A DNA stretch of 64,000 nucleotides from Novipirellula herctigrandis (GTDB lineage: Bacteria; Planctomycetota; Planctomycetia; Pirellulales; Pirellulaceae). The translations under genes were made by a program, and so were the position numbers. Below the pieces are notes generated by a model, which had not been told where the DNA came from, did no database searches, and worked only from the letters and a program-made list of their open reading frames with translations. Below are positions 18,046-34,796 of this stretch, one piece after another (the stretch's first letter is position 1; the number at the start of each line of letters is the position of its first letter). The stretch lies in the NCBI GenBank assembly GCA_007859835.1, contig SJPJ01000001.1, positions 4,066,623-4,130,622 on the forward strand, written 5' to 3'.

Positions 18046-19851
18046 CTACGCCAAGTCGCGGTCTTCGAATAGCAACATGGCTAACATCCAAATCGCAAAC
18101 GCAAAGCAAACTAGGTAGTTAAATGCACCTGCTAAATAGATCGCCGGAATCGGATTGCCGGCGTCAAGCGCCGATTGGACGTTGAAAACATTTAAGTTCG
18201 GAATGATCACCGCTATCAATTTGCCCACGAAACCGACCAATTCATTGTTGTCTCGCGCCGATGCCACCAATGGCGATGTCAAGTTACCAATGACGTAAAT
18301 CACAAAACAGGTAATGAAGTTTGCGAGCAGCGGCAATCGAGTGGCAAACGCTACCGCCAAAGCCCCAATCGCCATCGTCTCCATGAAGTACAAGCCGATC
18401 ACCGGGAGCGTCGTCATGATCTCATGATGACCTTCTTGCCATACCGGCGCCCCTTGGCTGTTCTCTCTCGCTTCGAAGATCGGCTTGTAGCTAATCACCA
18501 CCGTCAACACAGCCGACAAGATTACAAACAAGACCAGTACCGACAACATAATCCCAGCGTACTTGCCCAAAATAAACGCTCGTCGACTAACCGGCTTACT
18601 TAAAACCGTCAGCGCGGTTCTTCCTTCAATTTCATCACTCACGCTCGTCCCCGCACTCCAAACCGCCTGGATCATTCCAAGCACCATGATCAGAGTCACC
18701 CCGGAATCCTTCAGGAGCCGGATATCGTCACCGAGCGTGTTGAAGGGAACGATCCCGAAAAGCAAAATCCCAAACAGACCAATCGACAACAAAAGCAAAT
18801 AGAGCGGCTGGGCCATTTCGTTCTTTGCTGTCGATAGCGCCAATGCCCAGACTCGCGGTGCCGCTTGCCGAAAAACCACCAATGAACTGATCAACAAGAA
18901 AAACGCCCCAGCCACCCAAACAATCGAACTTGCCTCGGGGACGAGCGGCTGGTTCTTGAAAGTGAAGACGACCGTCGCGGGGTCAATTTCACGGTTTTGG
19001 ATATGCAGCCGAGTTGGGTCCGAAGGGACTGGTGGAACGTCACGGTCTTCATACCGGAACACCAACGACTCCCCTTCGTTGACACGCACGGGTGTACGGT
19101 TAAAGCCAGCGGGATCTTCGGCGTCGCCGAGCATGATCGTTCGGTCGCTTTCGATCGTTAACTCAGAAACATTCCTCAATTGGTAGTCGATATTGGCAAC
19201 ATGGAACGGTGAATCCTCACCTGCAATTTCCGGCGTCGCGGGAATTGAAACCGTAACAACCTTGGTCCCATCACCAACAAGGTTTACCGCTTGGACGGAA
19301 TCCAAAATCCCAGCACGTTCGTCAACCAGCGGGGTGCAGGCAAGTCCAAACACGGCAAAAACACCTGCGGTCGCCAACAAGTAAGGGACCACGCCCTCGC
19401 TCAACATATCTCGCCATTCCGCCCGAGTCCGATGCCACATTCCGAAAACAACCGCGAAACCCAAAATGAGGCCCATGCAGATCAGTGGCATGAATAGCGA
19501 GCTCGAATACTCACCACCAAGAGGCACATACGCCGAACAAAGCCCCACGGAAAAGAGTCCGCCAAGGATCAGCGAAGCGGTAATGCCAACTTTGGAATTG
19601 TCCGCTAAATGACCAAGCGGCGGAACAAACGAAAGAAGCGACAGCAAACCATAGACGGCGACCGAGAGCAAAAGCCCTAGCAGAAGCCCGACTGAAAGCA
19701 CCCATACAGGTGTTACCCATGTCGGAAGCCACTGGGCAACTTGCCCAACAATCAAACCAACTTGTGGGGCATGCTCGAAAGAACCAAACCCGATATCAGT
19801 GAGCCCGATGTGAGCGAATTGGGCAAGTGCGGAGTCAACGCAGGATGTCAT
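18046..19851 (-). CDS. ABC-2 type transport permease
   Basis: This 601-residue inner-membrane protein has four N-terminal hydrophobic helices, an extracytoplasmic beta-rich stretch (about 190-320), another helix, and a C-terminal six-helix block. The coupling segment DEIEGRTALTVLSKPVSRRAFILGKYAGI is characteristic of NosY/GldF-like ABC-2 permeases. Such permeases pair with a separate ATPase. None is adjacent; the nearest NBD protein (15808) has its own membrane domain and a broken ATPase. The start is the ATG at 19851. Substrate unknown. Confidence 0.85.
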   Translation of the reverse strand: MTSCVDSALAQFAHIGLTDIGFGSFEHAPQVGLIVGQVAQWLPTWVTPVWVLSVGLLLGLLLSVAVYGLLSLLSFVPPLGHLADNSKVGITASLILGGLFSVGLCSAYVPLGGEYSSSLFMPLICMGLILGFAVVFGMWHRTRAEWRDMLSEGVVPYLLATAGVFAVFGLACTPLVDERAGILDSVQAVNLVGDGTKVVTVSIPATPEIAGEDSPFHVANIDYQLRNVSELTIESDRTIMLGDAEDPAGFNRTPVRVNEGESLVFRYEDRDVPPVPSDPTRLHIQNREIDPATVVFTFKNQPLVPEASSIVWVAGAFFLLISSLVVFRQAAPRVWALALSTAKNEMAQPLYLLLLSIGLFGILLFGIVPFNTLGDDIRLLKDSGVTLIMVLGMIQAVWSAGTSVSDEIEGRTALTVLSKPVSRRAFILGKYAGIMLSVLVLFVILSAVLTVVISYKPIFEARENSQGAPVWQEGHHEIMTTLPVIGLYFMETMAIGALAVAFATRLPLLANFITCFVIYVIGNLTSPLVASARDNNELVGFVGKLIAVIIPNLNVFNVQSALDAGNPIPAIYLAGAFNYLVCFAFAIWMLAMLLFEDRDLA

Positions 19852-20027
19852 GTCGAGCCGGCCTTCAGAAATGAACGGTAAATTGGGACTGCAAATCGAG
19901 AACAGGGACCTAAATCCGAACGGGGGGACTTAGAGCAAAAAACCTGAGATCATGGCGGTAAAACACGTCCATCGAGGGCGTTTCCAAGAACACGAATAGG
20001 CTCGCGCTGCCTCGCTAGACCGCGTTA

Positions 20028-20561
20028 CTACGCGGGGTCGGCCGAAAAGGTTTGCTTGGAGAGGTGCTTGGCGAGTAAGTTGCGGACAGATTCTGGGATC
20101 GAAGTCTTTTGCAACACGCCTTGGGGGAGAAGTTCACAGCATACGGCGGTCAAAGTCCCCGTTGCGACCGAGATTTCCCGATCGGCCGATGCGTCTAGCG
20201 GCCCTGGACGCGATCCCCCTCGACTCGATGCGGATTCGTCGCTTCGAGTGAACCGAAACCCATACTGAACACTGCTGCTGCCCAGCTTCAAGACGGTCAC
20301 GTCAATGTTCAGCAAGTCTTCAAAACGAGCGACAGACTGGTAATCACATGTCGCGGCAACACGCGGCCAAGTGACCTGCGGCCCTGGATTGTCGCCCCCT
20401 CTATTTTCACGATCGCGTGTTGCTTCCGACAAAACAGACAGCCCGAGCGAGCGAATCAAGTCGTGCTCAGCGACTTCCATCATTGGAAAAAAGACCGAAA
20501 AATGGGCAATACCTGCCGCATCGGTGTCCCGAAATTCAATTCGACGCTGGGTACGGAACAT
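20028..20561 (-). CDS. acyl-CoA thioesterase (4HBT-type hotdog)
   Basis: This protein of about 177 residues has the hotdog thioesterase motif RDTDAAGIAHFSVFFPMME, where the Asp of DTDAAGI is the usual catalytic residue of 4-hydroxybenzoyl-CoA/YbgC-type enzymes. It would hydrolyse acyl- or aroyl-CoA in the cytoplasm. The ATG at 20561 is preferred to an in-frame TTG immediately before it. A low-complexity insert (SDESASSRGGSRPGP) around residues 110-130 is absent from typical members. It is upstream of the ABC-2 permease, with a 176-base gap. Confidence 0.85.
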   Translation of the reverse strand: MFRTQRRIEFRDTDAAGIAHFSVFFPMMEVAEHDLIRSLGLSVLSEATRDRENRGGDNPGPQVTWPRVAATCDYQSVARFEDLLNIDVTVLKLGSSSVQYGFRFTRSDESASSRGGSRPGPLDASADREISVATGTLTAVCCELLPQGVLQKTSIPESVRNLLAKHLSKQTFSADPA

Positions 20562-20620
20562 CAACTTCCCATTTCCTTCATTTGCCTGACAAAAATCCTA
20601 TGCCTGCATCCTATACCCCA

Positions 20621-20673
20621 GGACGGCAAGCATCATCCCCGGACGGCAAGCATCATCCCAGGACGGCAAGCAT
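20621..20673. repeat. 20-base tandem repeat, about 2.7 copies
   Basis: The unit GGACGGCAAGCATCATCCC plus one variable base starts at 20621, 20641 and 20661. The first two copies are complete and the third breaks off after GGACGGCAAGCAT. It lies in a non-coding spacer. Confidence 0.85.
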
Positions 20674-20840
20674 TGAAATATCCGGATCCGCCGAATCCCC
20701 GACTCAACCTAACGATCACTGGAACACTTGCGTTCAGCCCCCAAACTGCGGCCCAGACCCCAACCCCAGGCTCGCATTCAGGCCCGCAGCCCAAGTCAAG
20801 CATTTGAGGATATTCACGTAAACTCAACAAAGTGAGCACG

Positions 20841-20874
20841 AAAAAAAGGCAGACCCAACTGCGGGACCTGCCTT
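20841..20874 (-). terminator. Rho-independent terminator downstream of rpsR
   Basis: Read on the minus strand, an AGGCAG arm and a CTGCCT arm flank a partly paired interior, and the hairpin ends in seven T. It starts about 27 bases after the rpsR stop codon. Confidence 0.8.
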
Positions 20875-20900
20875 CAATTCCTTCGAATGACTTGCGGCTC

Positions 20901-21179
20901 TTATTCGCCGACGTAAGGCATCAGAGCCATAAAGCGAGCTCGCTTGACAGCGGCCGAAACAGCATGCTGGCTCGCTGCGGTGCAACCACTTTTACGGCGA
21001 CCGGCGATCCGACCTTGGCGATTGACCATCTTTTTCAGCAATTCAATGTCCTTGTAATCAACGTACATCGGCCGCGGACGCTGGCCATCGACGAAGATTG
21101 GATCTTTTCTTTTGGTACGGGTACGAACTCGTGATCGCTTGCGGGCACGGCTTCGCGTGCTCATTGGACGTGGTGGCAT
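20901..21179 (-). CDS. rpsR: 30S ribosomal protein S18
   Basis: This 92-residue basic protein carries the S18 core: YKDIELLKKMVNRQGRIAGRRKSG followed by AVSAAVKRARFMALMPY. An extra Arg-rich N-terminal segment (MPPRPMSTRSRARKRSRVRTRTKRK) makes it longer than E. coli S18 (75). A second in-frame ATG six codons in (MSTRSR) could be the true start. The gene is not flanked by rpsF, ssb or rplI, unlike in most bacteria. A terminator closes the transcript. Confidence 0.93.
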   Translation of the reverse strand: MPPRPMSTRSRARKRSRVRTRTKRKDPIFVDGQRPRPMYVDYKDIELLKKMVNRQGRIAGRRKSGCTAASQHAVSAAVKRARFMALMPYVGE

Positions 21180-21811
21180 TCGGTGCTCTGGTATTCAAAA
21201 AAGGGGGCGAACGGTCTGCTCTATTGTCTAGCGGGCAAGATTAAGGGCAAAAATTTCCCGCAACAACAAATCTGGCCGGCGACTCTATACGTGTTCGCCG
21301 ACTCGCCTAAAATGGAAGCACGCCAGTATGCCGGCAAGAAAAGATGTCCGCAAGGGGATTTCCCAGGCAATTTGCCCTTTCGCTGCCTGCCAACCTTTGC
21401 CATATTTTCCAATCGCATTCTGCGCGTCAGAAAGCAAACTGCGAATCGTAGTGACTTCAATAGCCTCTATGACCGCGATCGGTGCAAATCACCCCTTGCG
21501 GTTGTTGTGTGTCTCGATCGACGGCCAGCGAGCGTTTACCACTCGCGTAAAGAAGCCAGCGAGCGTTTACCACTCGCGTAAAGAAGATTGTCGACCGGTT
21601 CGCTCCCCGCGGGGAATCCACATTAGCTCGCTGTCCCCGATAGCGATCGGTGCGGCCCCCAACTCGTTAGATACGTGAACGTCAAAAGGCCGCGATCCGT
21701 TTTTTCAGGTCCTGTCTGAACGTGATGTGATTTGTAGATCATGTCCCTGAACAAATGAAGATTCGACAAACGAATCGTAATCATCGTGCGCATTGCCTAG
21801 GTAGAAGATAA
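21180..21811. other. intergenic region upstream of fusA with tandem repeat
   Basis: This 632-base divergent spacer lies between rpsR and fusA and should carry both promoters. The only clear structure is the 31-base tandem repeat at 21524-21585. Short open frames here have no recognisable features and are rejected as genes. Confidence 0.5.
21524..21585. repeat. 31-base perfect tandem duplication with internal inverted repeat
   Basis: Positions 21524-21554 and 21555-21585 are identical. Each copy contains GCGAG-CGTTTACCA-CTCGC, a 5-base inverted repeat around an A/T-containing loop, so the unit could form a hairpin or bind a dimeric protein. Confidence 0.9.
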
Positions 21812-23899
21812 ATGAAGCTGGAGAAACTCAGAAACATCGGAATCAGTGCCCACATCGACTCGGGTAAAACTACCCTCAGTGAGCGGATTCTGTTCTACAC
21901 CGGACGGATTCATAAAATTGAAGAAGTTCGCGGTGGCGGTGACGGCGCGACCATGGACCACATGGAATTGGAAAAAGAACGAGGGATCACGATCACCTCG
22001 GCTGCTACCAGCGTCGAGTGGAAAGGCCATCCGATCAACCTGATCGATACGCCCGGCCACGTTGACTTTACCGTCGAAGTGGAACGATCACTGCGTGTTC
22101 TCGATGGTGCGGTATTGGTCCTTTGCAGCGTCGGTGGCGTGCAAAGCCAATCGATCACCGTTGATCGCCAAATGAAACGTTACGGCATTCCTCGCGTGGC
22201 ATTCATCAACAAGATGGACCGCACCGGTGCGAACCCTTTCCGCGTTGTTCAGCAACTTCGCGAAAAGCTCGGCGCCGAAGCGTTCATGATGCAGTATCCG
22301 ATCGGCAAGGAAGAAAACTTCCAAGGCGTTGTCGACTTGATCGAAATGAAAGCCTATCTGCACGAAGGTGAAGAAGGCGAGATAGTTGTTGATGCTCCGA
22401 TTCCTGAAGACATCAAGGACGAGGTCGAGGAAGCACACGGCCAAATGCTTGAAGCGTTGTCAATGTACAGCGACGAAATGATGGAACTTCTGCTCAGTGA
22501 AGAAGAAGTACCGAAGGAATTGATATACAAAGTCACTCGTGATGCGGTTCTTGGAGGGGCAACCCCGGTCTACATGGGAACAGCCTACAAGAACAAAGGC
22601 GTTCAACCTCTGCTTGACGCTGTAATCCGGTATTTGCCGAGCCCGCTTGACCGCGAAATTCGCGGCAAGAACCCTTCGGACGAAAACCAAAACATCGATT
22701 TGCGCCCTGACTTTGCCCGACCCTTCGTCGGCATGGCGTTCAAGATCGTTGATGACCCGTTCGGCCAATTGACCTTTATGCGAGTTTACCAAGGTCAAAT
22801 CAAGAAGGGCGAAACCTACGTTAATCAACGTACGAGTCGCTCGGAACGATTCAGCCGCATCGTAAGAATGCACAGCGACAAACGTGAGGAAATCGATGTC
22901 GCATCGGCGGGTGACATTATCGCCGTGATGGGGATCGATTCTGCCAGTGGTGATACTTATGCCGCATCGCGTGATTTCTGCACGCTCGAATCGATGTTTG
23001 TCCCTGAACCCGTAATTAAGATCGCAATTTCGCCGAAGACACGCTCCGATGGTGACAAGTTGGGCAAAGCCCTGCAACGTTTCCGTAAAGAGGACCCAAC
23101 CTTCCGAGTCGAAACCGACGAAGAAACGAACGAAATTCTGATCAGCGGAATGGGTGAGCTTCACCTGGACGTCTACATTGAACGAATCCGCCGTGAATAC
23201 GGCGTGGAAATCGAAGCAGGTGCGCCAAAGGTTAGCTACCGCGAAAGCCCGACCAAAACGGTCGAGTTCGATTACAAGCACAAGAAGCAAACCGGTGGTA
23301 GCGGGCAATTCGCTCATATCAAGGGTGCACTCATGCCGATCGCCTCGGACAGCGAAGACAGCTTCGAATTCGAAGACAAGGTCACCGGCGGCCGCATTCC
23401 CAAACAGTACATCCCGGCTGTGGAAAAGGGCTTCCGAGACAGCCTCAAGAAGGGTCCGATCGCAGAATTCCCCGTGGTCGGCACCAAGATCCAGCTGCTC
23501 GACGGAACTTACCACGAAGTCGACTCGTCGGAAAAAGCGTTCTACACCGCAGCAACCGGTTGTTTCCGAGAGTACTTCAAAAAAGCCGATCCGAAGCTGC
23601 TTGAACCAATCATGAACGTCGAAATCGAATGCCCCGAATCGTTCCAAGGAACGGTTGTTGGTGACGTAATTCGTCGTCGTGGAATCATGACCAGCAACGA
23701 CATCCTTGAAGGCAACAGTGTCATCAAAGCGGAAGTCCCCCTTGCGGAAACCTTTGGCTACGCAACCGACCTTCGCAGCATGACGCAAGGACAAGGAACC
23801 TTCACGATGGAATTGGCAACCTACCGCCAAACTCCATCGAATGTCCAAGAAGAAATCATCGAAAACAAGAAACGCCAACAACTCGTCGGAGCCAAGTAA
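21812..23899 (+). CDS. fusA: elongation factor G, mitochondrial/spd type
   Basis: This 695-residue translational GTPase has P-loop AHIDSGKT (13-20), switch II DTPGH, and NKMD guanine specificity, followed by domains II-V ending in [15 protein letters not shown]. The P-loop Ser (HIDSGKT rather than HIDAGKT), the N-terminal [35 protein letters not shown] and the RRRGIM element in domain V (where most fusA proteins have a plain RG segment) resemble mitochondrial EFG1 and the spd-type EF-G1 described in spirochaetes and planctomycetes. It catalyses translocation. A canonical fusA copy with rpsL/rpsG may exist elsewhere. A terminator follows the stop codon. Confidence 0.95.
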
Positions 23900-23931
23900 G
23901 CGTTTTTCAAAACGATCATTTGATCATCCTA

Positions 23932-23966
23932 AACGGCGGCGTGCCAACAGCATGTCGCCGTTTTTT
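23932..23966 (+). terminator. Rho-independent terminator of fusA
   Basis: AACGGCGGCGTGCC and a CATGTCGCCGTT arm form an imperfect hairpin whose outer AACGGCG/CGCCGTT stem is perfect. It ends in six T, about 33 bases after the fusA stop codon. Confidence 0.85.
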
Positions 23967-23992
23967 CGTTTCCAGTCGAACAGAGCCGAGTC

Positions 23993-24643
23993 TCACCGAA
24001 GGGTGGACCGACCGTGGTGAGCACGGAATCGGTTAACGGTCGCAAAGGCTTGTGGAACGGATCGAACTAAGTTCACGACCGATGTCGTGCTGACTCCCCA
24101 CTGCTTGGCCACCAAACTCGGTTGACCACCCGTGGCGTGCAAGTCATTCAACAGCAGCGCCAAAATAGCGGGTTTGTCCGGATTGCTATCGTTCATTCGA
24201 TTTAGATGCTTGCGATAACGGTGACGAAATCCTGCTTGGATCGCGTCCGCTTCAATCCTTTCAGGTGGCTGATCGAAGGCCGATACGGTTCGAACCTCGA
24301 TTGCCAACCGGTACCTAAGTCGCTCCAGTGCAACGGCACGGTTGCCGGCTTGGCTGCGAAGCTCGGTCGCCTCCCCGACGATTCCGGTAGGGCGATGAGT
24401 CAGAAAAACGCCCGAACTTGTTTTATTGCGATGCTGACCACCGGGCCCACTACGTGTTTGAGTGCGCAACTCGCACTGGGAAAGCAACGTGTCGATCGGC
24501 AGCAAAGCGAAGTGTGGACCAGCGACACTATTGACGGGCGTCCGATCAGCAACCGCAGGCATCTCCGCCTGGGCTGGCTTTTCGCCTGAACCCTTATCGG
24601 CGAAGCCCTTTGATGATTTAGATTCGCTCACTGACAAACCCAC
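23993..24643 (-). CDS. GGQ-domain peptide release factor-like protein
   Basis: This 216-residue protein has the catalytic class-I release factor core: RTQTRSGPGGQHRNKTSSGVFLTHRPTGI, with GGQ at residues 68-70. It lacks the codon-recognition domain, so it resembles ArfB/YaeJ-like rescue factors. These hydrolyse peptidyl-tRNA on stalled ribosomes through the GGQ Gln. Unlike ArfB it has a longer C-terminus, with a helix-turn-helix-looking segment (PSLVAKQWGVSTTSVVNLVRSVP) and a short basic end. The start is a GTG at 24643, overlapping the M50 gene by 26 bases; a GTG at 24631 is an alternative. Translational coupling to that gene is likely. Confidence 0.85.
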   Translation of the reverse strand: MGLSVSESKSSKGFADKGSGEKPAQAEMPAVADRTPVNSVAGPHFALLPIDTLLSQCELRTQTRSGPGGQHRNKTSSGVFLTHRPTGIVGEATELRSQAGNRAVALERLRYRLAIEVRTVSAFDQPPERIEADAIQAGFRHRYRKHLNRMNDSNPDKPAILALLLNDLHATGGQPSLVAKQWGVSTTSVVNLVRSVPQAFATVNRFRAHHGRSTLR

Positions 24644-26657
24644 TTAGCCAGTCCACCAAATCGGCACCAAACGCTCGCGACGGCAAACGAACCACCCCCG
24701 TACAGTGACACCCGAGCGAATGAAGGATCGGCTCCTCACTTGCTGGCAACAAGCACATCACTTGATAAACAGCATCACGCGTCACCGAAGTTTCGTCACT
24801 AACGATCTTGGAGACTGCCTGAACCTCCGATTCAACTACCTGATCGTTCGCATGGTCCACCGCGACGCGGATCGGCGTCCCCACTGTAATCCATTGGTGA
24901 TCTTTCGCGTCGAGCAGGAACACCGCTGCACGCTTTTCTCTTTTTGCGATCCGGCACCAAGCTTCGCTCCATCGTCCACCAGCGTGAACAACACAACCGA
25001 CTGAACTAGCAAGCCAAACATTGACGCTTGCGTCACCCGAAATTGTTTGCGACTTCGGTGGTACGACAAAACCCGCCTCGGGAGCCCGCACCCGCGTTTG
25101 CTCAAGCCGCTCGCTCGCCTTGTCCAGCAACGTCTCGACCGATTGCTCGGCAGCGTGAAGCGTTGTCCATTGCTCAGCAACCTCGGGGCGATCAAGAGAA
25201 TCACGGCGGGCAAGCTCGCTTCGCAATCGGGCTAGTCGGACTTCGCCTTGCAAGCGAGAAATCTCGATTTGCTCGATCTCGCCATTCAACGTGGCCATCC
25301 ATTCGCCCTGTTCAACCCAGTGTCCAAACTCCGCTTCCACCTTTTCGATTTGACTCCCTGTGGGCAAGAAGACGCTGGTTGCTTCAGCAACGTCCACGAC
25401 ACCGCTGACTTCTCGATACCGAGGAAGCGGGACAAACAAGATCATTGCCACCAAAGCGGCGATCAGCGAACCAATCGTGAAGCGACGCAGCAAGGGGACT
25501 TTCGCCCACGGTCCCTTCCCTCTCAACAACCCTATGTAGTTTTTAGTTTGCTTTGCCATCAACATCATGGATATCAATATCACTAAGGCAACACCCAACA
25601 GAGCGATGTGAACCGCAGCAGAAAGATTGACGATAAACATGGCAATCGCCATTAAAACCAATGCTCGATAGACCATCGAAGAAGCATGGTAAATTGACAA
25701 GACAACTGCTCGGCGGTCACGCCGACGTGCCTTGCCAAAACAGTTTCCTGCAATCGGTGCAATTACCGTCGCCATGAATGATTCACTTGCTTCGCGTCTC
25801 AAGTTGGTACTGCCAAGCAAATCCATCAGCACGTAGTAACCGTCGTACCGCATCAACGGATTGGCGTTGAACACAAGCGTACTCACACCGCAAACCAACA
25901 TCAAATTCATCGCAACCATTCGTGTCACCGGATCATTTGCGGCAACCCAAACCAACGTAGCGATGGTTGCGATGATCAGCTCGACGTAGATGCCCGCCAA
26001 CATCACAGCAGCTCGTCGCACCGATGATGGCAACCGCCACACGTCGGTGACATCGCAATACGGAGATGGCATTCCGCAAAAGAGAAAGAGGCCCACGGAT
26101 TTGCTTCGTGCCCCCATTCGTCGGCACATGACCGCATGCGACATCTCATGAATGAGTTTGGTCAACAAAAACGTCGCTGCGATCCAGAACGGGTTCGCGT
26201 TTTTCAAATAGGTCGGCAACAATCGGATCCCAGCCATCGATTCACTCAATCGAGTCAGAACCAAGATCATGGCAACCGATATCAAAAGGGCCCAACCAAC
26301 AATGGCCGTGGGTGAAAACAAAACACCGCTCACTCTCGCTAGTCGTTTTGCGACCCAATCAATGCTGCCCAAAGGCACGCGAATCGCAAGAGGAGAGAAC
26401 CGAACGGGCGGTGCCTCGAACCGCTCGCGAGTCCAACCAGCCGCGCGGGCTTGGTGGAGCAATGCTTCGCTGGGCTGGTTGTCGCAATCCGCTTGGCATA
26501 TTCGTTGCCATGCGTTTTCGGTAATCCGCGAAAAACGACCACTGACCTCGTCAATCACCATTCGATAGACGCGACGATCACCGTCGATTCGATTCGTGCG
26601 GAGATCACGCCGCAAAAAGCGAGGTGCTCTTTCGTTGGAGATCGCTGCTTCGTTCAC
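24618..26657 (-). CDS. M50 zinc metalloprotease-HlyD fusion membrane protein
   Basis: This 679-residue protein is preceded by a GTG start 9 bases after the stop of the adaptor gene. Residues 1-110 form a PqqD-like soluble module. Membrane segments then carry the site-2-protease motifs HEMSH at 170-174 and NPLMRYDGYY with the third ligand Asp272. More helices follow to about 425. The C-terminus (430-680) has a HlyD/biotinyl-lipoyl barrel and a coiled coil (LSRLQGEVRLARLRSEL). Similar fusions are annotated as hemolysin D in planctomycetes, but I know of no characterised substrate. The layout suggests an inner-membrane pump-like or signal-processing complex with the two adaptors. Confidence 0.88.
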   Translation of the reverse strand: MNEAAISNERAPRFLRRDLRTNRIDGDRRVYRMVIDEVSGRFSRITENAWQRICQADCDNQPSEALLHQARAAGWTRERFEAPPVRFSPLAIRVPLGSIDWVAKRLARVSGVLFSPTAIVGWALLISVAMILVLTRLSESMAGIRLLPTYLKNANPFWIAATFLLTKLIHEMSHAVMCRRMGARSKSVGLFLFCGMPSPYCDVTDVWRLPSSVRRAAVMLAGIYVELIIATIATLVWVAANDPVTRMVAMNLMLVCGVSTLVFNANPLMRYDGYYVLMDLLGSTNLRREASESFMATVIAPIAGNCFGKARRRDRRAVVLSIYHASSMVYRALVLMAIAMFIVNLSAAVHIALLGVALVILISMMLMAKQTKNYIGLLRGKGPWAKVPLLRRFTIGSLIAALVAMILFVPLPRYREVSGVVDVAEATSVFLPTGSQIEKVEAEFGHWVEQGEWMATLNGEIEQIEISRLQGEVRLARLRSELARRDSLDRPEVAEQWTTLHAAEQSVETLLDKASERLEQTRVRAPEAGFVVPPKSQTISGDASVNVWLASSVGCVVHAGGRWSEAWCRIAKREKRAAVFLLDAKDHQWITVGTPIRVAVDHANDQVVESEVQAVSKIVSDETSVTRDAVYQVMCLLPASEEPILHSLGCHCTGVVRLPSRAFGADLVDWLSGFVSERI

Positions 26658-26666
26658 ATCGACCCT

Positions 26667-27632
26667 TTAGTAGTGATTGACGCGCGATTGGCCTTGCGAG
26701 CGAGCGTTTTGCATCGCCGCCTCACTGACGTAAACCTTCATACGAACCGTGGTGCCGGGCAGCAGCATCCAATTCGACGAATCACCATCACGACGATTGA
26801 CGATTTCTGCATGCATTCGAAACCTTCCACCCGGTAACATTTGTGGGTCAACTGACATTACGGTCCCTCGTAGCACACGCTCGGATCCGCTAACCGCGTC
26901 GGTCCAATGGACACTGACCGGCAACGTTTTGCATAAACTTGGTGACAAGTGGTCCTCTCGAAGAAGTGCATGCACGTGCAAGCGATCCAACCGTGCGACC
27001 GTAGCGATCGGGTGCCCCTTTTCAATCCACTCGCCCGCCGAACGACTCACTTCGATCACGGCTCCCGACAGAGGGCTCGCAATTTGCAGGTTCGCAATTT
27101 CATCGTCAAGCATTGAAAGGTCAGCTTCGCGAAGCTGCACTTCCATATTGTTTTCCAAACGCCGCTTCTTTGCCTGAGCGACTTCCAACTCCCCACGCTC
27201 GACTGCCAACCGCAACCTGCGGATGTGCGACAGTGGAACCGCTCCACTAACGTCATCGTAAATAGATCGATTAGAATCGAGTTCTGCCTTGGCTTCCGCC
27301 AAAGCGGTTTCAGCGTAACGCAACTCCACATCATCATTGGCTTCGCTACGCGCATGTTCGAGTCGCAGGCCCAACGCGCGACGGCGAATTTTTTGCGAAC
27401 GGTCATCCAAACGGGCAATCAACTCACCCTGTTCAACGGATTGGTTTAATTGAATCGCGACTTCCGACACGCGGCCCGACACCATGCTCGGGACGTCAAC
27501 TTCATCCGCGAACCGAACCACGCAATCAGTCACCTCAATCGACTTCTCTTGCTGGGCTTGAACAGGCACAGCGAAACTTATCAACACGATGGCGACACCA
27601 TGCCATTGCAATCGCCGACTATTGGTTGTCAT
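26667..27632 (-). CDS. periplasmic HlyD/RND-type adaptor
   Basis: The protein is 321 residues long from ATG 27632, which overlaps the end of the GAF-HlyD gene by 14 bases, suggesting coupling. A signal peptide (LQWHGVAIVLISFAVPVQAQ) precedes a membrane-fusion protein fold: lipoyl halves (SMVSGRVSEVAIQLNQSVEQGELIARLDD and ASPLSGAVIEVSRSAGEWIEKGHPIATVA) separated by a coiled-coil hairpin, then a beta-barrel. Such adaptors join inner-membrane transporters to outer-membrane channels. No RND pump, ABC ATPase or TolC-like gene is adjacent. Confidence 0.88.
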   Translation of the reverse strand: MTTNSRRLQWHGVAIVLISFAVPVQAQQEKSIEVTDCVVRFADEVDVPSMVSGRVSEVAIQLNQSVEQGELIARLDDRSQKIRRRALGLRLEHARSEANDDVELRYAETALAEAKAELDSNRSIYDDVSGAVPLSHIRRLRLAVERGELEVAQAKKRRLENNMEVQLREADLSMLDDEIANLQIASPLSGAVIEVSRSAGEWIEKGHPIATVARLDRLHVHALLREDHLSPSLCKTLPVSVHWTDAVSGSERVLRGTVMSVDPQMLPGGRFRMHAEIVNRRDGDSSNWMLLPGTTVRMKVYVSEAAMQNARSQGQSRVNHY

Positions 27633-29730
27633 GATGAATGCCCTCGGTGGATGAGTCAGAAAAGTCATTGGAAGAGCCCGTGGAGAAGTAAAGTCCTGCC
27701 ATCGAGTAAACCGAGTCAATCGCATCATGGAACAGAACACTCACCAACGGCGACGATTCACAGCGAAACAATACTCGCACGGGTGCTCCCGAAACCGGGC
27801 CCGAATCGTCAAGCGAGTCAATCGAACCGGACTCACTAACGAATGAATCGAGTCTCAGCACGACAGCTTTGGAATCGCTTGCCTCTGTGGACGTTCGTAG
27901 CGCAGGTCCGATTGAATCGATTGACGCTGGTAAACTTTCGCCATCGGTCCCTTCGATAACCGCCGCCACACGAAGCGATTTCAATTTAGCTGCCTGGCGC
28001 ACCGACTCAATTCGAGCAAGAGGCACGCGAGCGTCAACTAACCACGTAGTCTCCTTTGCGATCACTTCAAGCAGTGCATCGCCGCGGTTGGCCGGACGTC
28101 CAAGCATCCGACGTTCGATTTGCCAAGCATCAACCACGCCGTCACACGAAGCCCTTAATTCCAAGGAATCTTGCACACGCTTCAAAACTGCTAGCTGGTC
28201 ATCGATCGTTTGCAACTCTTCTGCCAACAAACTTCGTTCACCCTGCAATTGCTCGCTGCGGTCGGTACGATACGATGCGGCATCAACAAGTGCAGTCGTA
28301 AAGGCGGCTTGCTTTTGCGTTAGCACGGCGCGGCGTCCGACGAGCGAGGTGATTTGTTGTTCCAATTCAGGATCGCTCATCGTCAGCAGTTTCTGTCCCT
28401 GATGAACCGACTCGCCATGCGAAACATGAATCGCATCGACCACGGCGCTACGCGGAGCGAACAGCATTTGCACGTTGGCGGGACGCAGCGCCGCCGGGGA
28501 TGTGACCACCATCGGAACGGGAAACAATGCAATGACAAGAACGATCGTCATCAAGGCGACCGTAATGAGCGGACCATGCCAACGTCGACGTGCCGAGCCG
28601 TTTAGCTGGTTGGCCATAGCTACCATCGCTCGGCCGCCAGGAATCGCCTCAATACTCCGTCGGTGGCGAATCGCTAATCCGACGTGATAGGCAATCCGCT
28701 GCAAAGGTTCCGTGATCAAATCAGTTTCCAGTTGGCTATGCTCGTTCCCAAGGCCAACGATACAAACGCCCTCATGCTCATCCGAAGAGGCAACCGTGAT
28801 TGGAATGAGAGAATCGGAATCGCCCGACTCCGAACTGTATTCGAAAATCTCGCAACTGCTCGGCCTAAAATGCTCGTCCGCGACCGATTCAATTTGCTTT
28901 GCTCCGATGCCGTGCCGGTCAATCACGTTGCAATGACTGACCGCAACCAACCTTACATCGCTGTCTCGAACGTAGCACATCCCCACTCGATCAAGGCCGA
29001 ATAAGTCAGCGACCGAATCGACCACGTAGGCTTCAATCTTATGTGTTGTCGAGAGCGTGTGAAGTGTGGCCAAAAAAGTATCGACTTGTTGGGCAATTCT
29101 GTGTTTTCGATGCAATTCCCTTAGTTGGTCGTTACGCAGAAACTCGCCCGCTAAGTCAGCCATTTGCGCGACAAATCGCAAGTAGCCTCGCTGAGTTGCC
29201 ACGCCGCAATCCGATTCAAGGAACACTTCCAAGACATACGATGCTCGCGCTGAAAGCGGGTCACTATGAATCGGAACGACCGCCGCCGGAACTGCCGCCG
29301 GATTGGCCGCAGCCGTTGGGTCAACGGCATCCGGTGTCGATGGAACCACGACGGGTTGTCCACCCGCGACGACCTCTGCCAACATTTGATAGTGAGTGGA
29401 TTGGGATTGGGCCAAAATCGATCGGTCGGTCGTTCTTCCAATTCGGTGAGCCACAGAAAAGGGGATTTCGCCCGCTGGATCGACTTGCCAAATCACAACC
29501 CCTTCGGCGGCCATCGCGCGCAAGACACGGTCGGCCAATCGACTCAAGAATTGACTTCGGGAACAATCGCTTCGAACCGCCGAGGCGATTTCGCGAACAA
29601 TATCGGCAATCTCGCGACGCGTATCGACGACGAGCGGATCCGGGGCTGGCGCAGCGTTTAATCCTGGGCCCGCGCCCGAAGGAGAAAAAACGAACGGTTG
29701 GTCAGCAGTGGCCGGTTGCACGGGAGACAA
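27619..29730 (-). CDS. GAF-domain plus HlyD-type membrane adaptor
   Basis: This 703-residue protein has two GAF-like sensory modules, at about residues 40-190 and 210-360. They are followed by one transmembrane helix (387-405), a lipoyl half-motif (FAPRSAVVDAIHVSHGESVHQGQKLLTM), a coiled coil and a beta-barrel ending in a polar tail (SDSSTEGIHHDNQ). A stop codon lies just upstream, and the only starts are TTG at 29730 or GTG at 29721. A GAF sensor fused to an efflux adaptor would let a cytoplasmic ligand regulate an export complex. It heads the three-gene block. Confidence 0.85.
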   Translation of the reverse strand: MSPVQPATADQPFVFSPSGAGPGLNAAPAPDPLVVDTRREIADIVREIASAVRSDCSRSQFLSRLADRVLRAMAAEGVVIWQVDPAGEIPFSVAHRIGRTTDRSILAQSQSTHYQMLAEVVAGGQPVVVPSTPDAVDPTAAANPAAVPAAVVPIHSDPLSARASYVLEVFLESDCGVATQRGYLRFVAQMADLAGEFLRNDQLRELHRKHRIAQQVDTFLATLHTLSTTHKIEAYVVDSVADLFGLDRVGMCYVRDSDVRLVAVSHCNVIDRHGIGAKQIESVADEHFRPSSCEIFEYSSESGDSDSLIPITVASSDEHEGVCIVGLGNEHSQLETDLITEPLQRIAYHVGLAIRHRRSIEAIPGGRAMVAMANQLNGSARRRWHGPLITVALMTIVLVIALFPVPMVVTSPAALRPANVQMLFAPRSAVVDAIHVSHGESVHQGQKLLTMSDPELEQQITSLVGRRAVLTQKQAAFTTALVDAASYRTDRSEQLQGERSLLAEELQTIDDQLAVLKRVQDSLELRASCDGVVDAWQIERRMLGRPANRGDALLEVIAKETTWLVDARVPLARIESVRQAAKLKSLRVAAVIEGTDGESLPASIDSIGPALRTSTEASDSKAVVLRLDSFVSESGSIDSLDDSGPVSGAPVRVLFRCESSPLVSVLFHDAIDSVYSMAGLYFSTGSSNDFSDSSTEGIHHDNQ

Positions 29731-29858
29731 TGACAGCGATGGATGATCGATCTAATGCCAATAACGAAGGTCGCCGGTATCAAATCAAAGAAGCACAAAG
29801 CAATGCCAAAAGTCTTTGCTAGCAATGTCTGCCACTCGCTGCGAATCAACCAATGTCG

Positions 29859-30668
29859 CTACGGAGCGGCCAAGACCTGCGAAAAGAACCCCGACCACGA
29901 AAAACGCAAATCGTCGCGGTTTTTGCCAATCGCCTTGTTTAACTTTGAAACGATTCGAACGTTCTGTTTGTTAACAAAGCGTTCCACGATCACTTCTTGC
30001 ATCACTTCGCCCCATGCTTCTGCGGCATCGCCACCGATATGGCTGACGCGATCCACTTCAAAACGGACAAGTGATAACTCCGCCGTCTCGACTTTCGGGT
30101 CGATGACCAGCGCTGGCGGAACCTCTAAATAGTCGGCCGCAAATCCAATGCTCGATCCGAGCCGGAGACTTACCGTGAGCCTACCCGAAACAGTGACGCT
30201 ATACCATTTCACGCCGTAGTTCCATCTCTGGATACGTGCAGTGAACGTGAGCGGCGTTTCCGTTGTCGAAGCAATCTTCCAACGGTCTTCCTCCGAGCGA
30301 GTGACTGCGTGGACAACCGTCTTCGCTGCCGTTGGTGAGTTTACGGGCGGCAATTGGATCTCATATTGGATCCATCGACCATGCTCAAGTTCACGATAGC
30401 GACGGTGGGTTTTGATTTTAAACCCATCGAGACGCGTACGGACGCCTGCCCAAACTTGTTTCGTTTCACCCCAATCCTTGTCGCCTTGATACTTACGCGG
30501 CACTTCTCGCATCGCGATCGTTGCAAGCCACTGGACCGAATCGCGCGCTTGCGACTCACTGATTGCCAGAGGTTCGGCCGAGTCGGTCGGCGATGATAAT
30601 GCTACAAACGTCGCGACAAAAACCAGTAGCAAGAATAGCCGCAATCCCTGCGGCTTTATGAGATCCAC
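29859..30668 (-). CDS. exported protein of unknown function
   Basis: Starting at the GTG at 30668 gives 269 residues. Upstream in-frame codons would overlap the CAP-like gene. A strongly hydrophobic stretch (LFLLLVFVATFVALSS) ending near DSAEP looks like a signal peptide or anchor. The mature part alternates strands (YEIQLPPVN, TARIQRWNYGVKWYSVTVSGRLTVSLRL) with a helical end (AEAWGEVMQEVIVERFV). Such features suggest a periplasmic, mostly beta protein. It is co-directional with the CAP-like gene 14 bases upstream and with the GAF-HlyD gene 128 bases downstream, so it may belong to that block. Confidence 0.65.
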   Translation of the reverse strand: MDLIKPQGLRLFLLLVFVATFVALSSPTDSAEPLAISESQARDSVQWLATIAMREVPRKYQGDKDWGETKQVWAGVRTRLDGFKIKTHRRYRELEHGRWIQYEIQLPPVNSPTAAKTVVHAVTRSEEDRWKIASTTETPLTFTARIQRWNYGVKWYSVTVSGRLTVSLRLGSSIGFAADYLEVPPALVIDPKVETAELSLVRFEVDRVSHIGGDAAEAWGEVMQEVIVERFVNKQNVRIVSKLNKAIGKNRDDLRFSWSGFFSQVLAAP

Positions 30669-30682
30669 GATTTGCCAACCGC

Positions 30683-31249
30683 CTACCGATAGACGACGCA
30701 GAAATAGACACCATCTCGCCCAGTAGCCATGGCGGCACCGGCGGCGATCATACGCGAATCGTTCGTGAAGCAAGCCGACACTCCCGCGGGTGAGTAGGAA
30801 CTAGACCATCCAACGCCTTCGTAACGCCCCGGGGAAAACGATCCTGGCGGATGGCCCTTGATGCCCTTCGCCGCCATCAATGACGCACGCTGCCGAGCCA
30901 CCGCCTGCAACGCCGGATCGGATCGGAGGGCACCAATGCCGCTGCGAGCACGCTGAGCATTCAGCGCTGAAAGGACATTCGAGACTCCGCCACCGGATTG
31001 CACTCCCGAGGGTGGAACTATCGTAGACGAGTAGGACGCCCTAGGCACAGACGAAATTGGGCTGATTGCCGAAGCCTGCATCACCGCAGCCCCATTTTGC
31101 GTTACTCCACTGGACGAATGAATTTTTCCACACTTCGGACAAACAAATTGGTTGGACGCCACAACGATATTTTGAGCTGGCAACTCTCCAACAAAAACTC
31201 CGCTAAGAGCGATAACCGCACCCACGGTCAATGATGTGAATCGAAGCAT
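30683..31249 (-). CDS. exported CAP/SCP-like domain protein
   Basis: The protein is 188 residues long from ATG 31249, which has an AAAGGAGA Shine-Dalgarno sequence. A signal peptide ends at ELPAQ. Next come a CxxC pair (FVCPKCGKIH) and a Ser-rich linker. A C-terminal region (VLSALNAQRARSGIGALRSDPALQAVARQRASLMAAKGIKG) matches the CAP/SCP superfamily pattern of Asn/Ala-Arg helices followed by GVGWSS and CVVYR strands. One CAP His/Glu pair is not clearly present, so activity is doubtful. It opens the possible six-gene minus-strand block. Confidence 0.75.
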   Translation of the reverse strand: MLRFTSLTVGAVIALSGVFVGELPAQNIVVASNQFVCPKCGKIHSSSGVTQNGAAVMQASAISPISSVPRASYSSTIVPPSGVQSGGGVSNVLSALNAQRARSGIGALRSDPALQAVARQRASLMAAKGIKGHPPGSFSPGRYEGVGWSSSYSPAGVSACFTNDSRMIAAGAAMATGRDGVYFCVVYR

Positions 31250-31772
31250 CGATTTCTCCTTTGACTTCGCATGTTTGAATAGCTGAAAAGCGAGATCCGC
31301 TTGGAGTTCACACCCCACGCCGACCAACGATCCAATAAGAGTCGCAGCTTCATCCACTTTGGCGAAAGGGGGCAACTTGGCAATCCAGGCTGGCTTTCCC
31401 GACTTGCGAAAATGGGCACATCAATAAGCTGCTTTTGCCAGTGGACTTACGACAAAACGTTTTTTGCTAAGAAAAATGCAAACGACAAACCCGGCCCGCA
31501 AAGACAGGCAACACAGGGGCTTTAGGCAAAGCAATGTCAGGGATGTTTCCCATCGACAATGCACATCGCATGCTCGGCCGCCGCTGAGAGTATTTTCATC
31601 ATTGACGTGGGGATTATCGTTGACGGTGGGATCACCGTAGGCTCAGCCCCATACAAGCGCTGCAATGCCAGGGCCATTGGCCTACATCAAGCAAAAAAGC
31701 CTGCACGCGTTAACGCATGCAGACTTTTGGAGTGGATCAACAAAGATCGTTCAACGGAGACGTTCGGGACGA
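31250..31772. other. intergenic region, no gene seen apart from terminator
   Basis: This 523-base spacer lies between tig and the CAP-like gene. The tig terminator is at 31692-31730. The remainder shows no recognisable gene or repeat, and it probably contains the promoter for the CAP-like operon. Confidence 0.5.
31692..31730 (-). terminator. Rho-independent terminator of tig
   Basis: On the minus strand, CTGCATGCG and CGCGTGCAG flank a TTAA loop, with one G-T pair in the stem, and are followed by GCTTTTTT. The hairpin lies about 45 bases after the tig stop codon. Confidence 0.85.
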
Positions 31773-33272
31773 CTATTCCTTCTCGTCTTCCTTCTCAGCC
31801 GACTTCGGCGTATTGTCTTCGTACTTTGCTTCAGGAATCGCGTTTTCATCGCGAGTCGGAAGCACGTTGTGGTAAACCGCAAATTCTGCGTTCGCTTCGT
31901 CGGCTGGCTTGTCGACCTTCTCTTCGGTGATCTTCGCAGATTCGACAATCATCTCGATCACCTTGCGTTCGACGATTTGATTTCGAACTGCGTCCATTTG
32001 GCCGCTCTTTTCTAGCCGAGCACGGATTTTTCGTTCCGGCACATCGCTTTGTTGGGCGATGTTTGCGATTTCGACATCGTAATCCGCTGCTTCCGCATCG
32101 ACATTTTCTTCTTCTGCGATCTTCTCGAGAATAAAATGTTCGCGAAGCGATGCTTCGGTTGACGCTTTCGCATTTTGACGTGAAGCGTTCACGAAGCGAC
32201 GAATATTGTCTTCATCAAATCCGCTGCTTCTCAGTTCCAGCACCTTCCGCTGCAATTCGCGTTGCGTTTGGCGTTGCACCAAGGATTCGGGCAGTTCAAA
32301 GTCGGCATTACCAGCCAATTTTTCGACAACCGCTTCACGCAAAACTTGCTGTACACGGTAATCGGCTTGGCGGACCAGCGAATCACGGACGAAACTTCGC
32401 AGCTCGTCTTCGGACTCAAAATCGCCCAACTCTTCGAGGAACGATTCGGTCAACTTTGGCAATTCGCTCTTTAACACTTCGACCACGTGAATCTCAGCAT
32501 CAATTTCTTTTCCGCGGAGTGCTTCATCGGCAACACCTTCGCCGATTTTGACTTTGCCGGAACGAGTTTCGCCTTCACTTACATCCTTCATCAGCGTGCC
32601 GAATTCTTCGATCACGCCGTCGGAAAGGCTCAAACGAGAGCTGAAGGTGATTCGCTCTTCTTCGAGTTTGGAAAGAAGTTTTGCGTCGCCCTTGAACTGG
32701 ATATCGACGACCAATTTGTCGCCAAGTTCAGCCGGTTCGTCTGTCGCTTCCACAGTGGCGTATCGGCTGAGGACACGTTCGAGCGAGGCTTGAACATCGT
32801 CGTCACTGATTTCTTCGACTGGCTTGGTAAGCTCAAGCTCCTTCCAAGTTGGCGTCTCGAAATCGGGACGGACTTCAACGCTAAATTGATACTTAAAGTC
32901 ACCTTCTTCTTCGGGCAATTCAATTGATTCAAAATCGAATTCAGGTTCACCAATCGCCGAAAAGTCTTCCTTCTCACTGACTTGGGCGAGCGAATCCATT
33001 AGCAAGGAACCCTTGACTTGATCGCGAACTCGGTCTTTGAATTGTTTTTCGACCAATTTCCGCGGCGCTCGTCCAGCACGGAAACCAGCGACACTCGCCT
33101 CTGGAACGATTTCGTCGTAGGCCTCTTTCAAATAACGCTCGACCTCGGCGTGGGGGATCGTCACGATCACTTCACGCACGCACGCACTAGGGCTTTCGAC
33201 CTTGGCCTCGAGCTGAATGGGTTTCTTTTCTTCGGGGACTTGCGTCGCTTCGGGCTCAGTGGAGGTGGACAT
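31773..33272 (-). CDS. tig: trigger factor
   Basis: This ribosome-bound chaperone and peptidyl-prolyl isomerase is 499 residues from ATG 33272. The N-terminal ribosome-docking signature GFRAGRAPRKLVEKQF is present, matching GFRxGKxP. It is followed by a PPIase-like central domain (GDKLVVDIQF) and a long helical C-terminal arm with an acidic tail (KYEDNTPKSAEKEDEKE). The acidic C-terminal extension is longer than in E. coli (432 residues). No clpP/clpX genes follow. It is transcribed alone, ending at a terminator. Confidence 0.93.
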   Translation of the reverse strand: MSTSTEPEATQVPEEKKPIQLEAKVESPSACVREVIVTIPHAEVERYLKEAYDEIVPEASVAGFRAGRAPRKLVEKQFKDRVRDQVKGSLLMDSLAQVSEKEDFSAIGEPEFDFESIELPEEEGDFKYQFSVEVRPDFETPTWKELELTKPVEEISDDDVQASLERVLSRYATVEATDEPAELGDKLVVDIQFKGDAKLLSKLEEERITFSSRLSLSDGVIEEFGTLMKDVSEGETRSGKVKIGEGVADEALRGKEIDAEIHVVEVLKSELPKLTESFLEELGDFESEDELRSFVRDSLVRQADYRVQQVLREAVVEKLAGNADFELPESLVQRQTQRELQRKVLELRSSGFDEDNIRRFVNASRQNAKASTEASLREHFILEKIAEEENVDAEAADYDVEIANIAQQSDVPERKIRARLEKSGQMDAVRNQIVERKVIEMIVESAKITEEKVDKPADEANAEFAVYHNVLPTRDENAIPEAKYEDNTPKSAEKEDEKE

Positions 33273-33469
33273 CCTTCTTAAGGCCTCTCGTCTTTCAGCT
33301 TGATCGTGGAGCAGGGAGAATCGGGAAAATATGACCAACCGACCAACGGCGATCGATCCCGAGTTTCATGGGAATGCAAGTCCGACAGTTTAACCTGCGG
33401 TCCCATGGTTTGAAAATGGGGGACTCGCGTCAGGAATCGCCAGCATGACGGTTGAGAAGAGAATGAAAA

Positions 33470-33542
33470 AGCGGCTGATGGGATTCGAACCCACGACAAC
33501 AACGTTGGCAACGTTGTGCTCTGCCAACTGAGCTACAGCCGC
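33470..33542 (-). tRNA. tRNA-Gly (GCC)
   Basis: The acceptor arms GCGGCTG (33542-33536) and CAGCCGC (33477-33471) pair fully, with T as discriminator at 33470. The anticodon stem CAACG/CGTTG encloses loop TTGCCAA, giving anticodon GCC. The T-arm GTGGGTTCGAATCCCAT is canonical. CCA is not encoded. Confidence 0.95.
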
Positions 33543-33776
33543 AAATGCTTCGTAAAGCGAGAGATTATACCGAGCGAAAAAAGTTTGCAAGGCATGTCTG
33601 CAAAAGAAATTGATGGAATCGATACAGTCCAATCCAAGGAGCCAATCCGGCGGGACTTCGGATCTGGCATTTTCGATGGAATTGGCATTTTCGATCTGCC
33701 GTTTTCCCCACTCCCCCGCAACGGATGTTGTGGTTATTCTCAAAGCTGATTTCTATCCCCTCATTCTCGGCCATCC

Positions 33777-34796
33777 ATGGATTCTCTCGTGCCGCACGCT
33801 CAACTTGGTCCGATCGCCATTCATTTACCGTCGCGAGTGGAGACGAATGACGCGTTGCAAGCAAAATATCCCAGGTGGGATTTGGATCTGATTGCGGAAA
33901 AAACGGGGATTCGCCAGCGTCACATTGCCGAACCGTCGGAAACCGCAAGCGATTTGGCGGTCGCCGCAGCGGAGCAGCTTTTTCAGTCACAATCGATCGA
34001 CCGCAGCGAAATCGACTTTGTTCTGCTCTGCACCCAAACTCCCGATTACCCGCTCCCGACGACTAGCTGCTTGATCCACGATCGGCTCGGATTGCCAAAA
34101 CGATGCGGTGCCCTCGATTTTAACCTTGGATGTAGCGGTTTTGTTTATGGATTGGCGATGGCCGATGGGCTAATCCAAAGTCGTGCTGCCAAGAAAATCT
34201 TGTTGCTAACAGCGGAAACCTACAGCAAATACATTGACCCCGACGATCGTAGTTTGCGGACTATTTTCGGTGACGCCGCCGCAGCCACTCTGGTCACGGC
34301 CGAAAACGAAAAAAGCTTGTGGGGCTTCCAATTCGGCAGCGACGGCAGTGGCGGTGACATGCTGATCGTCGGGGATGGCGGCAGCCGCCCCACCGAGGAT
34401 GCCATCAAACCTCGCCACCGAAAACGATGGAAAAGTCGTTTGTACATGGATGGGCCGAGCTTGATTAACTTTACTGTCGAAGCGGTGCCGCGTTTAATCA
34501 ACGAAATTTTGGAAGAAAATGGTTTAGACGATTCGCGAATCCACCGCTATCTGATGCACCAAGCAACGTGGAAAATGCTCGACCAATTGGCTAACCGCAT
34601 GGGTGTCGCGCCAGAACGGATTCCCATCGAACTGAGCGATGTCGGTAACACGGTATCGTGTACATTGCCCATCTTGATCGATCGTCTGCGAAATCGAGGT
34701 GAACTTTCCGCCGATTCGGTTAACATGCTAATAGGCTTCGGCGTCGGATTATCGTGGGCTGGCTGTCTTTGGCAAGACAAATGGGCAACCGGCTAA
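33777..34796 (+). CDS. FabH-like 3-oxoacyl-ACP synthase III
   Basis: This 339-residue thiolase-fold ketosynthase has Cys119 in FNLGCSGFVYGL, His261 in LMHQATWKMLDQL and Asn291 in DVGNTVSCTLP. This is the complete Cys-His-Asn triad that starts fatty-acid or related chains from acyl-CoA. Typical FabH has GA(N/S) and GNTSAAS, and here GNTVSCTLP differs. The ATG is at 33777. An insert (GGSRPTEDAIKPRHRKRWKSR) around residues 201-221 is unusual. It stands outside the FabF cluster, so it may be housekeeping FabH or an unusual starter enzyme. Confidence 0.9.
   Translation: MDSLVPHAQLGPIAIHLPSRVETNDALQAKYPRWDLDLIAEKTGIRQRHIAEPSETASDLAVAAAEQLFQSQSIDRSEIDFVLLCTQTPDYPLPTTSCLIHDRLGLPKRCGALDFNLGCSGFVYGLAMADGLIQSRAAKKILLLTAETYSKYIDPDDRSLRTIFGDAAAATLVTAENEKSLWGFQFGSDGSGGDMLIVGDGGSRPTEDAIKPRHRKRWKSRLYMDGPSLINFTVEAVPRLINEILEENGLDDSRIHRYLMHQATWKMLDQLANRMGVAPERIPIELSDVGNTVSCTLPILIDRLRNRGELSADSVNMLIGFGVGLSWAGCLWQDKWATG

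Follow-up and report, generated by a model that had tools for sequence, protein, structure and literature searches.

A GAF-HlyD, HlyD and M50-HlyD gene triad of Novipirellula herctigrandis: candidate core of a proposed leader-reading secretion machine powered by a SecA-like ATPase

What might three genes encoding two export-type adaptors and a membrane protease fused to a third, with neither motor nor channel beside them, move out of a cell, and how? The question is raised by a locus of the planctomycete Novipirellula herctigrandis (9.5-Mb genome), in which an adaptor of the HlyD type with a GAF domain (GAF-HlyD), a plain HlyD adaptor and a site-2 protease of family M50 with its own adaptor part (M50-HlyD) are co-directional and overlap or nearly touch. 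The locus lies on contig 1 in a stretch of 64,000 nucleotides, here called the window (positions 4,066,623 to 4,130,622 of SJPJ01000001.1). An original prediction had read it as an export-type machine in which a site-2 protease is combined with adaptors and with sensory input from a GAF domain; its gene arrangement agrees with our coordinates and Pfam matches, and conserved synteny across Planctomycetota argues, as far as sequence goes, for the functional part as well. We put the probability at roughly 55% that the triad forms the core, at the inner membrane and in the periplasm, of a protein-secretion machine that is powered by a SecA-like ATPase and reads LExR leaders, this being one of seven paralogous copies in the genome.

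The locus is real, conserved and of a partly known type, and its recurrence in other genomes goes beyond chance. M50-HlyD relatives are present in 59 of the 60 sampled genomes of the family, as had been expected for planctomycetes, with 7 matches in the window's own and no genome exceeding 10; the best named GTDB match is in Rhodopirellula maiorica (52% identity; own-genome records were possibly left out). The seven best-matching regions keep the M50-HlyD/GAF-HlyD order, with HlyD in between in five and not called in G055 and G011. We also surveyed the best 80 of 555 public-genome M50-HlyD loci, a choice biased to close relatives, and 59 of these had enough upstream DNA to look for partners on the same strand within 4.6 kb: GAF-HlyD was found in 47, HlyD in 49, both in 41, at least one in 55 and neither in 4.

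Domains, active site, gene order and neighbours in relatives are established at the level of sequence. M50-HlyD (Peptidase_M50, E = 8.5e-8; its HlyD match is weak and below cut-off) has HEMSH at residues 170–174 and Asp272, and H170, E171, H174 and D272 are invariant in all 32 aligned relatives, so that the alignment indicates an intact site-2 protease active site. Its AlphaFold2 model (predicted local distance difference test, pLDDT, 83.5) has an N-terminal unit of three strands and two helices, a helical membrane part and an adaptor fold, and the 50 matches listed by Foldseek against the PDB are all adaptors (MacA, MexA, AcrA) or complexes containing them. In GAF-HlyD (HlyD_3, E = 2.3e-12; GAF, E = 4e-4 and 21.4 bits, just under the cut-off of 22.4), a scan found a single transmembrane helix (391–409), and the model (pLDDT 83.6) has two alpha/beta domains, a transmembrane helix and an adaptor; sequence and model together suggest a cytoplasmic GAF domain, one transmembrane helix and a periplasmic adaptor. 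The top Foldseek matches are again MacA/AcrA/MexA, with no GAF structure among the 50 listed. The model may hold a second GAF-like fold; paralogue L047 has two GAF regions by Pfam. The HlyD gene (HlyD_3, E = 3.5e-13 in 26667–27740) most likely starts at ATG 27632, giving 321 residues and a signal peptide, rather than at GTG 27740; from this start a hydropathy scan finds no transmembrane helix. With ATG 27632 taken as the start, GAF-HlyD and HlyD overlap by 14 nt, HlyD and M50-HlyD lie 9 nt apart, and M50-HlyD overlaps the release-factor gene by 26 nt.

The N-terminal domain of M50-HlyD would connect the machine with leaders. TfuB1 and the recognition elements (RREs) of ribosomally synthesised and post-translationally modified peptides (RiPPs) bind RiPP leaders. 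Pfam assigns PqqD, weakly, to 12 of 32 full M50-HlyD proteins of relatives at E ≤ 0.05 (best 1.1e-4) and to 13 of 20 of the relatives' N-terminal domains at E ≤ 0.01, and the best solved structures for a profile of the domain are PqqD (3g2b, E = 0.0054) and TfuB1 (6jx3, E = 0.028). This domain may be what binds the LExR leaders. The same likeness, together with the top NCBIfam matches for the M50 part (daptide protease, E = 2.2e-42; YydH/LiaK, E = 2.9e-12), would also suit RiPP-type maturation and export, in which M50 would trim small precursors, like the proteases of daptide and epipeptide pathways, and the adaptors would carry the peptides out. Those matches, however, are far under their cut-offs (145.6 versus 300 bits and 46.8 versus 225 bits), the eight small open reading frames (ORFs) of the window that are matched in L039, L040 or L084 all run antisense inside the four genes, and the neighbours in Proteobacteria are giant proteins; we regard a RiPP pathway as quite improbable. 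As a RiPP precursor, no intergenic candidate emerged among the conserved small ORFs.

Where, then, would the motor and the channel be? The original prediction had noted the lack of a pump or TolC, which holds beside the window triad, but a SecA-like ATPase and a TolC-family protein adjoin the triad in relatives and elsewhere in the genome. Paralogous loci of the window genome (G000) encode a protein of the TolC family and a SecA-like ATPase of 648 residues, in which Pfam matches the DEAD, preprotein-binding and P-loop regions and, at E ≤ 0.01, no wing/scaffold. The TolC-type channel genes of this genome are at loci L046 and L049–L051, and full sets of triad, motor and channel at L049 and L050. 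In six family genomes (G043, G018, G053, G001, G002, G021) the GAF-HlyD triad has a SecA-like gene on its upstream side, and the corresponding gene of the window genome stands alone, ~240 kb from the window (L059:9494-11656; G000:C1:4336254). The motor and channel “missing” from the window would thus have to act in trans (L059; L046, L049–L051). SecA_DEAD genes are present in each of the 20 genomes searched, and all but G022 have at least one in addition to the long housekeeping SecA. Among the 80 survey loci, 11 have a SecA-like gene, 8 a TolC-type gene and 2 both.

Big proteins near several of the loci begin with basic residues followed by LExR-x-LL-(S/A), and these leader-bearing giants are, on this sequence evidence, candidate substrates of the machine class. 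The window genome has 40 matches to the leader profile at E ≤ 10, all in open frames, the longest of them 10,376 residues (E = 0.76), and 14 relatives have 2 to 33 each at E ≤ 0.1. On the Kyte-Doolittle scale, 21 of 28 leaders stay at or below 1.8 in every stretch of 11 residues; three exported proteins of the window reach 2.3–3.1. NCBIfam gave no name for the leader in five planctomycete proteins. A leader protein adjoining a GAF-HlyD triad at L058:15078-17432 is an animal-type haem peroxidase (Pfam, E = 1.1e-168) and a candidate enzyme cargo.

Counting non-machinery ORFs of at least 300 residues, the leader pattern is found in 12/238 near M50-HlyD (43 loci) and in 2/333 at 40 control loci (p = 0.0013), the controls being hand-picked at round-number positions away from listed M50-HlyD loci and 39 of the 43 test loci coming from the eight genomes that supplied them. 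The pattern was written after three of the twelve matches were known, and one (L169) resembles a chance match; with the three seeds and one doubtful match removed, 8 versus 2 remain (p = 0.019 per ORF). The survey, which holds no seeds, gives 14/351, spread over 13 loci; compared with those controls this is p = 0.004 per ORF, in genomes that differ from the control genomes and with two matches (L129, L161) that resemble chance. Around the six SecA-linked loci, up to a distance of 20 kb, there are 8 non-seed leader matches against 0.59 expected, a count that mixes E limits of 10 and 0.1, includes short contigs in G001 and G002 and takes in one 85-residue frame at a contig end. Across 148 genomes of the phylum the leader is present in 20 of the 43 with a strong M50-HlyD match and in 5 of the 105 without, at a limit (E ≤ 1e-75) chosen after seeing the data; shared ancestry confounds this co-occurrence, since five of the six leader seeds come from the source family.

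Proteobacteria extend the picture. Among the matches listed (30 of 83 plasmid records with M50-HlyD), we examined 15 loci, and in 14 a giant gene of at least 2,000 residues lies on the same strand just upstream of the adaptor and protease genes, in some cases with TolC or a small DUF3467 gene in between; the remaining locus is that of Tistrella. Annotated giants measure 16,239 (Variovorax), 12,918 (Pseudosulfitobacter), 10,603 (Pontibrevibacter) and 8,847 residues (Methylosinus), and that of Ensifer is an open frame of ~9,000. Three giants are called LEPR-XLL proteins by the record annotation itself. A leader is present in eight of the nine giants whose start was reached. The strict pattern matches it in Ensifer, Pseudosulfitobacter, Pontibrevibacter and Thalassospira; the other four were recognised by eye or with a looser pattern: LEPRVLLNAD in Methylosinus, LEARYMFDA in Variovorax, YEPRLLLSAD in Pseudohalocynthiibacter and LEPRFMFDA in A. 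brasilense, the last in a DUF4347 gene that precedes the giant. A. thermophilum has no leader at its annotated starts. SecA-like genes are found in 9 of the 15 loci and annotated TolC in 6, a lower bound because several records carry no annotation. The DUF3467 gene, possibly a chaperone, stands between giant and adaptor genes in four alphaproteobacterial loci (L227, L231, L234, L082). On the 62-kb plasmid of Pseudohalocynthiibacter (L241, L231), frames of 9,035 and 2,547 residues flank the record start, which suggests that one giant gene fills more than half of the plasmid.

Several observations weigh against the secretion reading, for the class or for the window copy. No motor, channel or leader protein is found near the window triad by ORFs, Pfam or leader search (the leader profile has no match inside the window at E ≤ 10), Pfam finds no PqqD in the window M50-HlyD, and the alignment has the PqqD-like part shorter in the window's clade, in which none of eight members has an adjacent SecA-like or TolC gene. 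Counted per locus, the leader tests do not reach significance: p = 0.087 once seeds and one doubtful match are removed, and p = 0.14 in the survey. The leader profile A1 is not enriched in the 80 survey loci (3 matches; 2.3 versus 2.65 per Mb, the latter rate from a somewhat different search), so the pattern with controls was used instead. G022 has neither M50-HlyD nor GAF-HlyD and still 6 leader matches (E ≤ 10, best 1.6e-4; assembly 91% complete), and 9 of 12 genomes of family f3 have M50-HlyD with no leader match at E ≤ 0.01. In 5 of the 15 proteobacterial loci TolC occurs with no SecA-like gene in the stretch seen; these would need another motor or one encoded elsewhere. Finally, the open-access literature searched yielded no experimental study of the locus type.

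The clade deserves closer attention. In a quick tree of 68 of 130 M50-HlyD proteins (the 62 dropped being survey loci without SecA, TolC or release-factor labels), the window protein falls in this eight-member clade with support 100; the window copy is a divergent, motor-less paralogue whose part in secretion is putative. Such a paralogue may have moved past secretion altogether and persist as an orphan assembly that serves small-molecule efflux or upkeep of the envelope, as its separate clade, the absence of adjacent SecA or TolC and the shortened N-terminal domain would allow. M50-HlyD, with its catalytic residues, and GAF-HlyD nevertheless stay together in the clade, and all seven of its family genomes keep an extra SecA-like ATPase, a weak point since 12 of the 13 other searched genomes do so too; we hold such a departure from secretion to be unlikely. 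A GAF domain next to a site-2 protease with intact active site, and no motor, channel or leader protein alongside, could also be a signalling device for regulated intramembrane proteolysis, with the adaptor folds serving only as periplasmic sensors or scaffolds. In relatives, however, the same architecture sits among SecA-like, TolC and giant genes, and we judge this improbable.

We return to secretion as the preferred reading and propose the following mechanism. A large preprotein would carry the cytosolic leader LExR-x-LL-(S/A) in place of a normal signal peptide and would be recognised through it by the PqqD/RRE-like domain of M50-HlyD. The short SecA-like ATPase would then drive the chain over the inner membrane, through the membrane domain of M50-HlyD or SecYEG, and the M50 site would cut off the leader. 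All three triad proteins would contribute their adaptor parts to a conduit that crosses the periplasm and reaches a TolC-type channel, and assembly may be gated by the GAF domain. For the window copy, the distant motor and the channels of the paralogous loci would serve in trans.

At about even odds, the class as a whole is a leader-defined route in at least Planctomycetota and Proteobacteria, in which an RRE-like intramembrane protease reads and clips, a SecA-like ATPase without wing and scaffold pushes, and HlyD adaptors with TolC export proteins of up to 16,000 residues; the source family would have up to 10 copies per genome, the window triad being a specialised, GAF-gated one. With open frames that reach 16,239 residues and leaders that mostly have no normal hydrophobic signal peptide, such proteins pose a puzzle as to their route to the surface. 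If the proposal is true, leader, protease-adaptor and SecA-like motor would be a new combination of export parts, with a sequence tag that predicts cargo and hosts in which it is directly testable. What this adds for the machine class as a whole is a testable hypothesis that is concrete as to both cargo and leader.

The triad and its neighbours are listed below.

Table 1. Genes of the triad and those adjoining it in the window, with the sources of each assignment.
Feature	Coordinates	Strand	Evidence
GAF-HlyD	27619-29730	minus	Pfam, AlphaFold2, Foldseek, transmembrane scan
HlyD adaptor	26667-27632	minus	Pfam, start re-evaluation
M50-HlyD	24618-26657	minus	Pfam, alignment, AlphaFold2, Foldseek
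GGQ release-factor-like (RF-1 domain) gene	23993-24643	minus	Pfam
Exported protein without Pfam family and weak CAP-like protein	29859-30773 and 30683-31249	minus	

The release-factor-like gene (RF-1, E = 1.8e-15) overlaps M50-HlyD as predicted and encodes a GGQ protein besides RF1 and RF2, with a C-terminal extension. As a machine part it was rejected, contrary to the original prediction. A close relative is present in 51 of 60 family genomes (the other nine have only matches of RF1/RF2 strength) and in 1 of the 80 survey loci, and among the places listed it is linked to M50-HlyD only in the window clade, where it stands beside M50-HlyD in seven of eight members (the window genome, G037, G013, G055, G011, G028 and R. 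maiorica, with G006 the eighth); it probably does not belong to the machine. The CAP-like and exported genes do precede the triad, but the CAP match is weak and below cut-off (E = 0.0038; 18.5 versus 21.1 bits), and 29859-30773 matched no Pfam family. They, too, were rejected as parts: the two genes recur as a separate pair, which in G055 lies ~8 kb from the triad and in G013 and G036 is either on a different contig or at a great distance from M50-HlyD. Further off, 4–8 kb downstream of the triad, 15808-19851 encodes an ABC (ATP-binding cassette) ATPase-domain protein (603 aa) and an ABC-2 type permease (601 aa), separated from the triad by an opposite-strand EF-G gene and with no link to it seen. 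A protein of 842 residues (44414-46942) with cytochrome c7 and MtrC/MtrF-like matches is probably a multihaem cytochrome.

How does the locus compare with known systems? The absence of any experimentally described system of such composition, as the original prediction had it, agrees with our literature search, but the locus type was described in silico, with neither substrate nor experiment, in 2015 (Kamneva, Poudel & Ward; PMC4452313). That paper places GAF-HlyD, HlyD and M50-HlyD in one locus, sometimes with OEP, and proposes M50 as membrane part and SecA as ATPase, with parts sometimes encoded elsewhere, so that the composition is not new. The window resembles this secondary SecA_DEAD, type-I-related locus in having the three genes together, and differs from it in having no adjacent SecA_DEAD and no optional OEP/TolC, a shortened M50-HlyD N-terminal domain and a coupled release-factor gene. 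Neither LEPR nor giant is used as a term in that text, in which PqqD was not searched for; among the papers searched, “LEPR-XLL” appears in two, of which one deals with a giant Vibrio protein and the other lists a transcript.

A tripartite pump of the resistance-nodulation-division (RND) family would have an RND permease with the adaptor, and none was matched in the ten genes scanned with Pfam (18046-34796). With type I secretion (HlyB-HlyD-TolC) the class shares HlyD-type adaptors, a TolC-type channel in some relatives and very large proposed substrates. It differs from type I in that no ABC transporter was seen with the triad (in the window, among the genes scanned at 23993-33338), relatives have a SecA-like ATPase and an M50 protease, and the proposed signal is N-terminal. 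Classical type I signals are C-terminal. The M50 core matches the daptide and YydH/LiaK maturation proteases (NF041824, NF058609), below the level of a daptide equivalog, and M50-HlyD differs from them in its fused adaptor domain and in having no precursor peptide among the conserved small ORFs. To PqqD and the RREs (3g2b, 6jx3) the relatives' N-terminal domain shows a weak profile match, with none in Pfam for the window protein, and here the domain is fused to a protease-adaptor. This PqqD/RRE-like domain of M50-HlyD relatives, and the leader-bearing giants as candidate cargo, are what our comparison of sequences would add to the earlier description.

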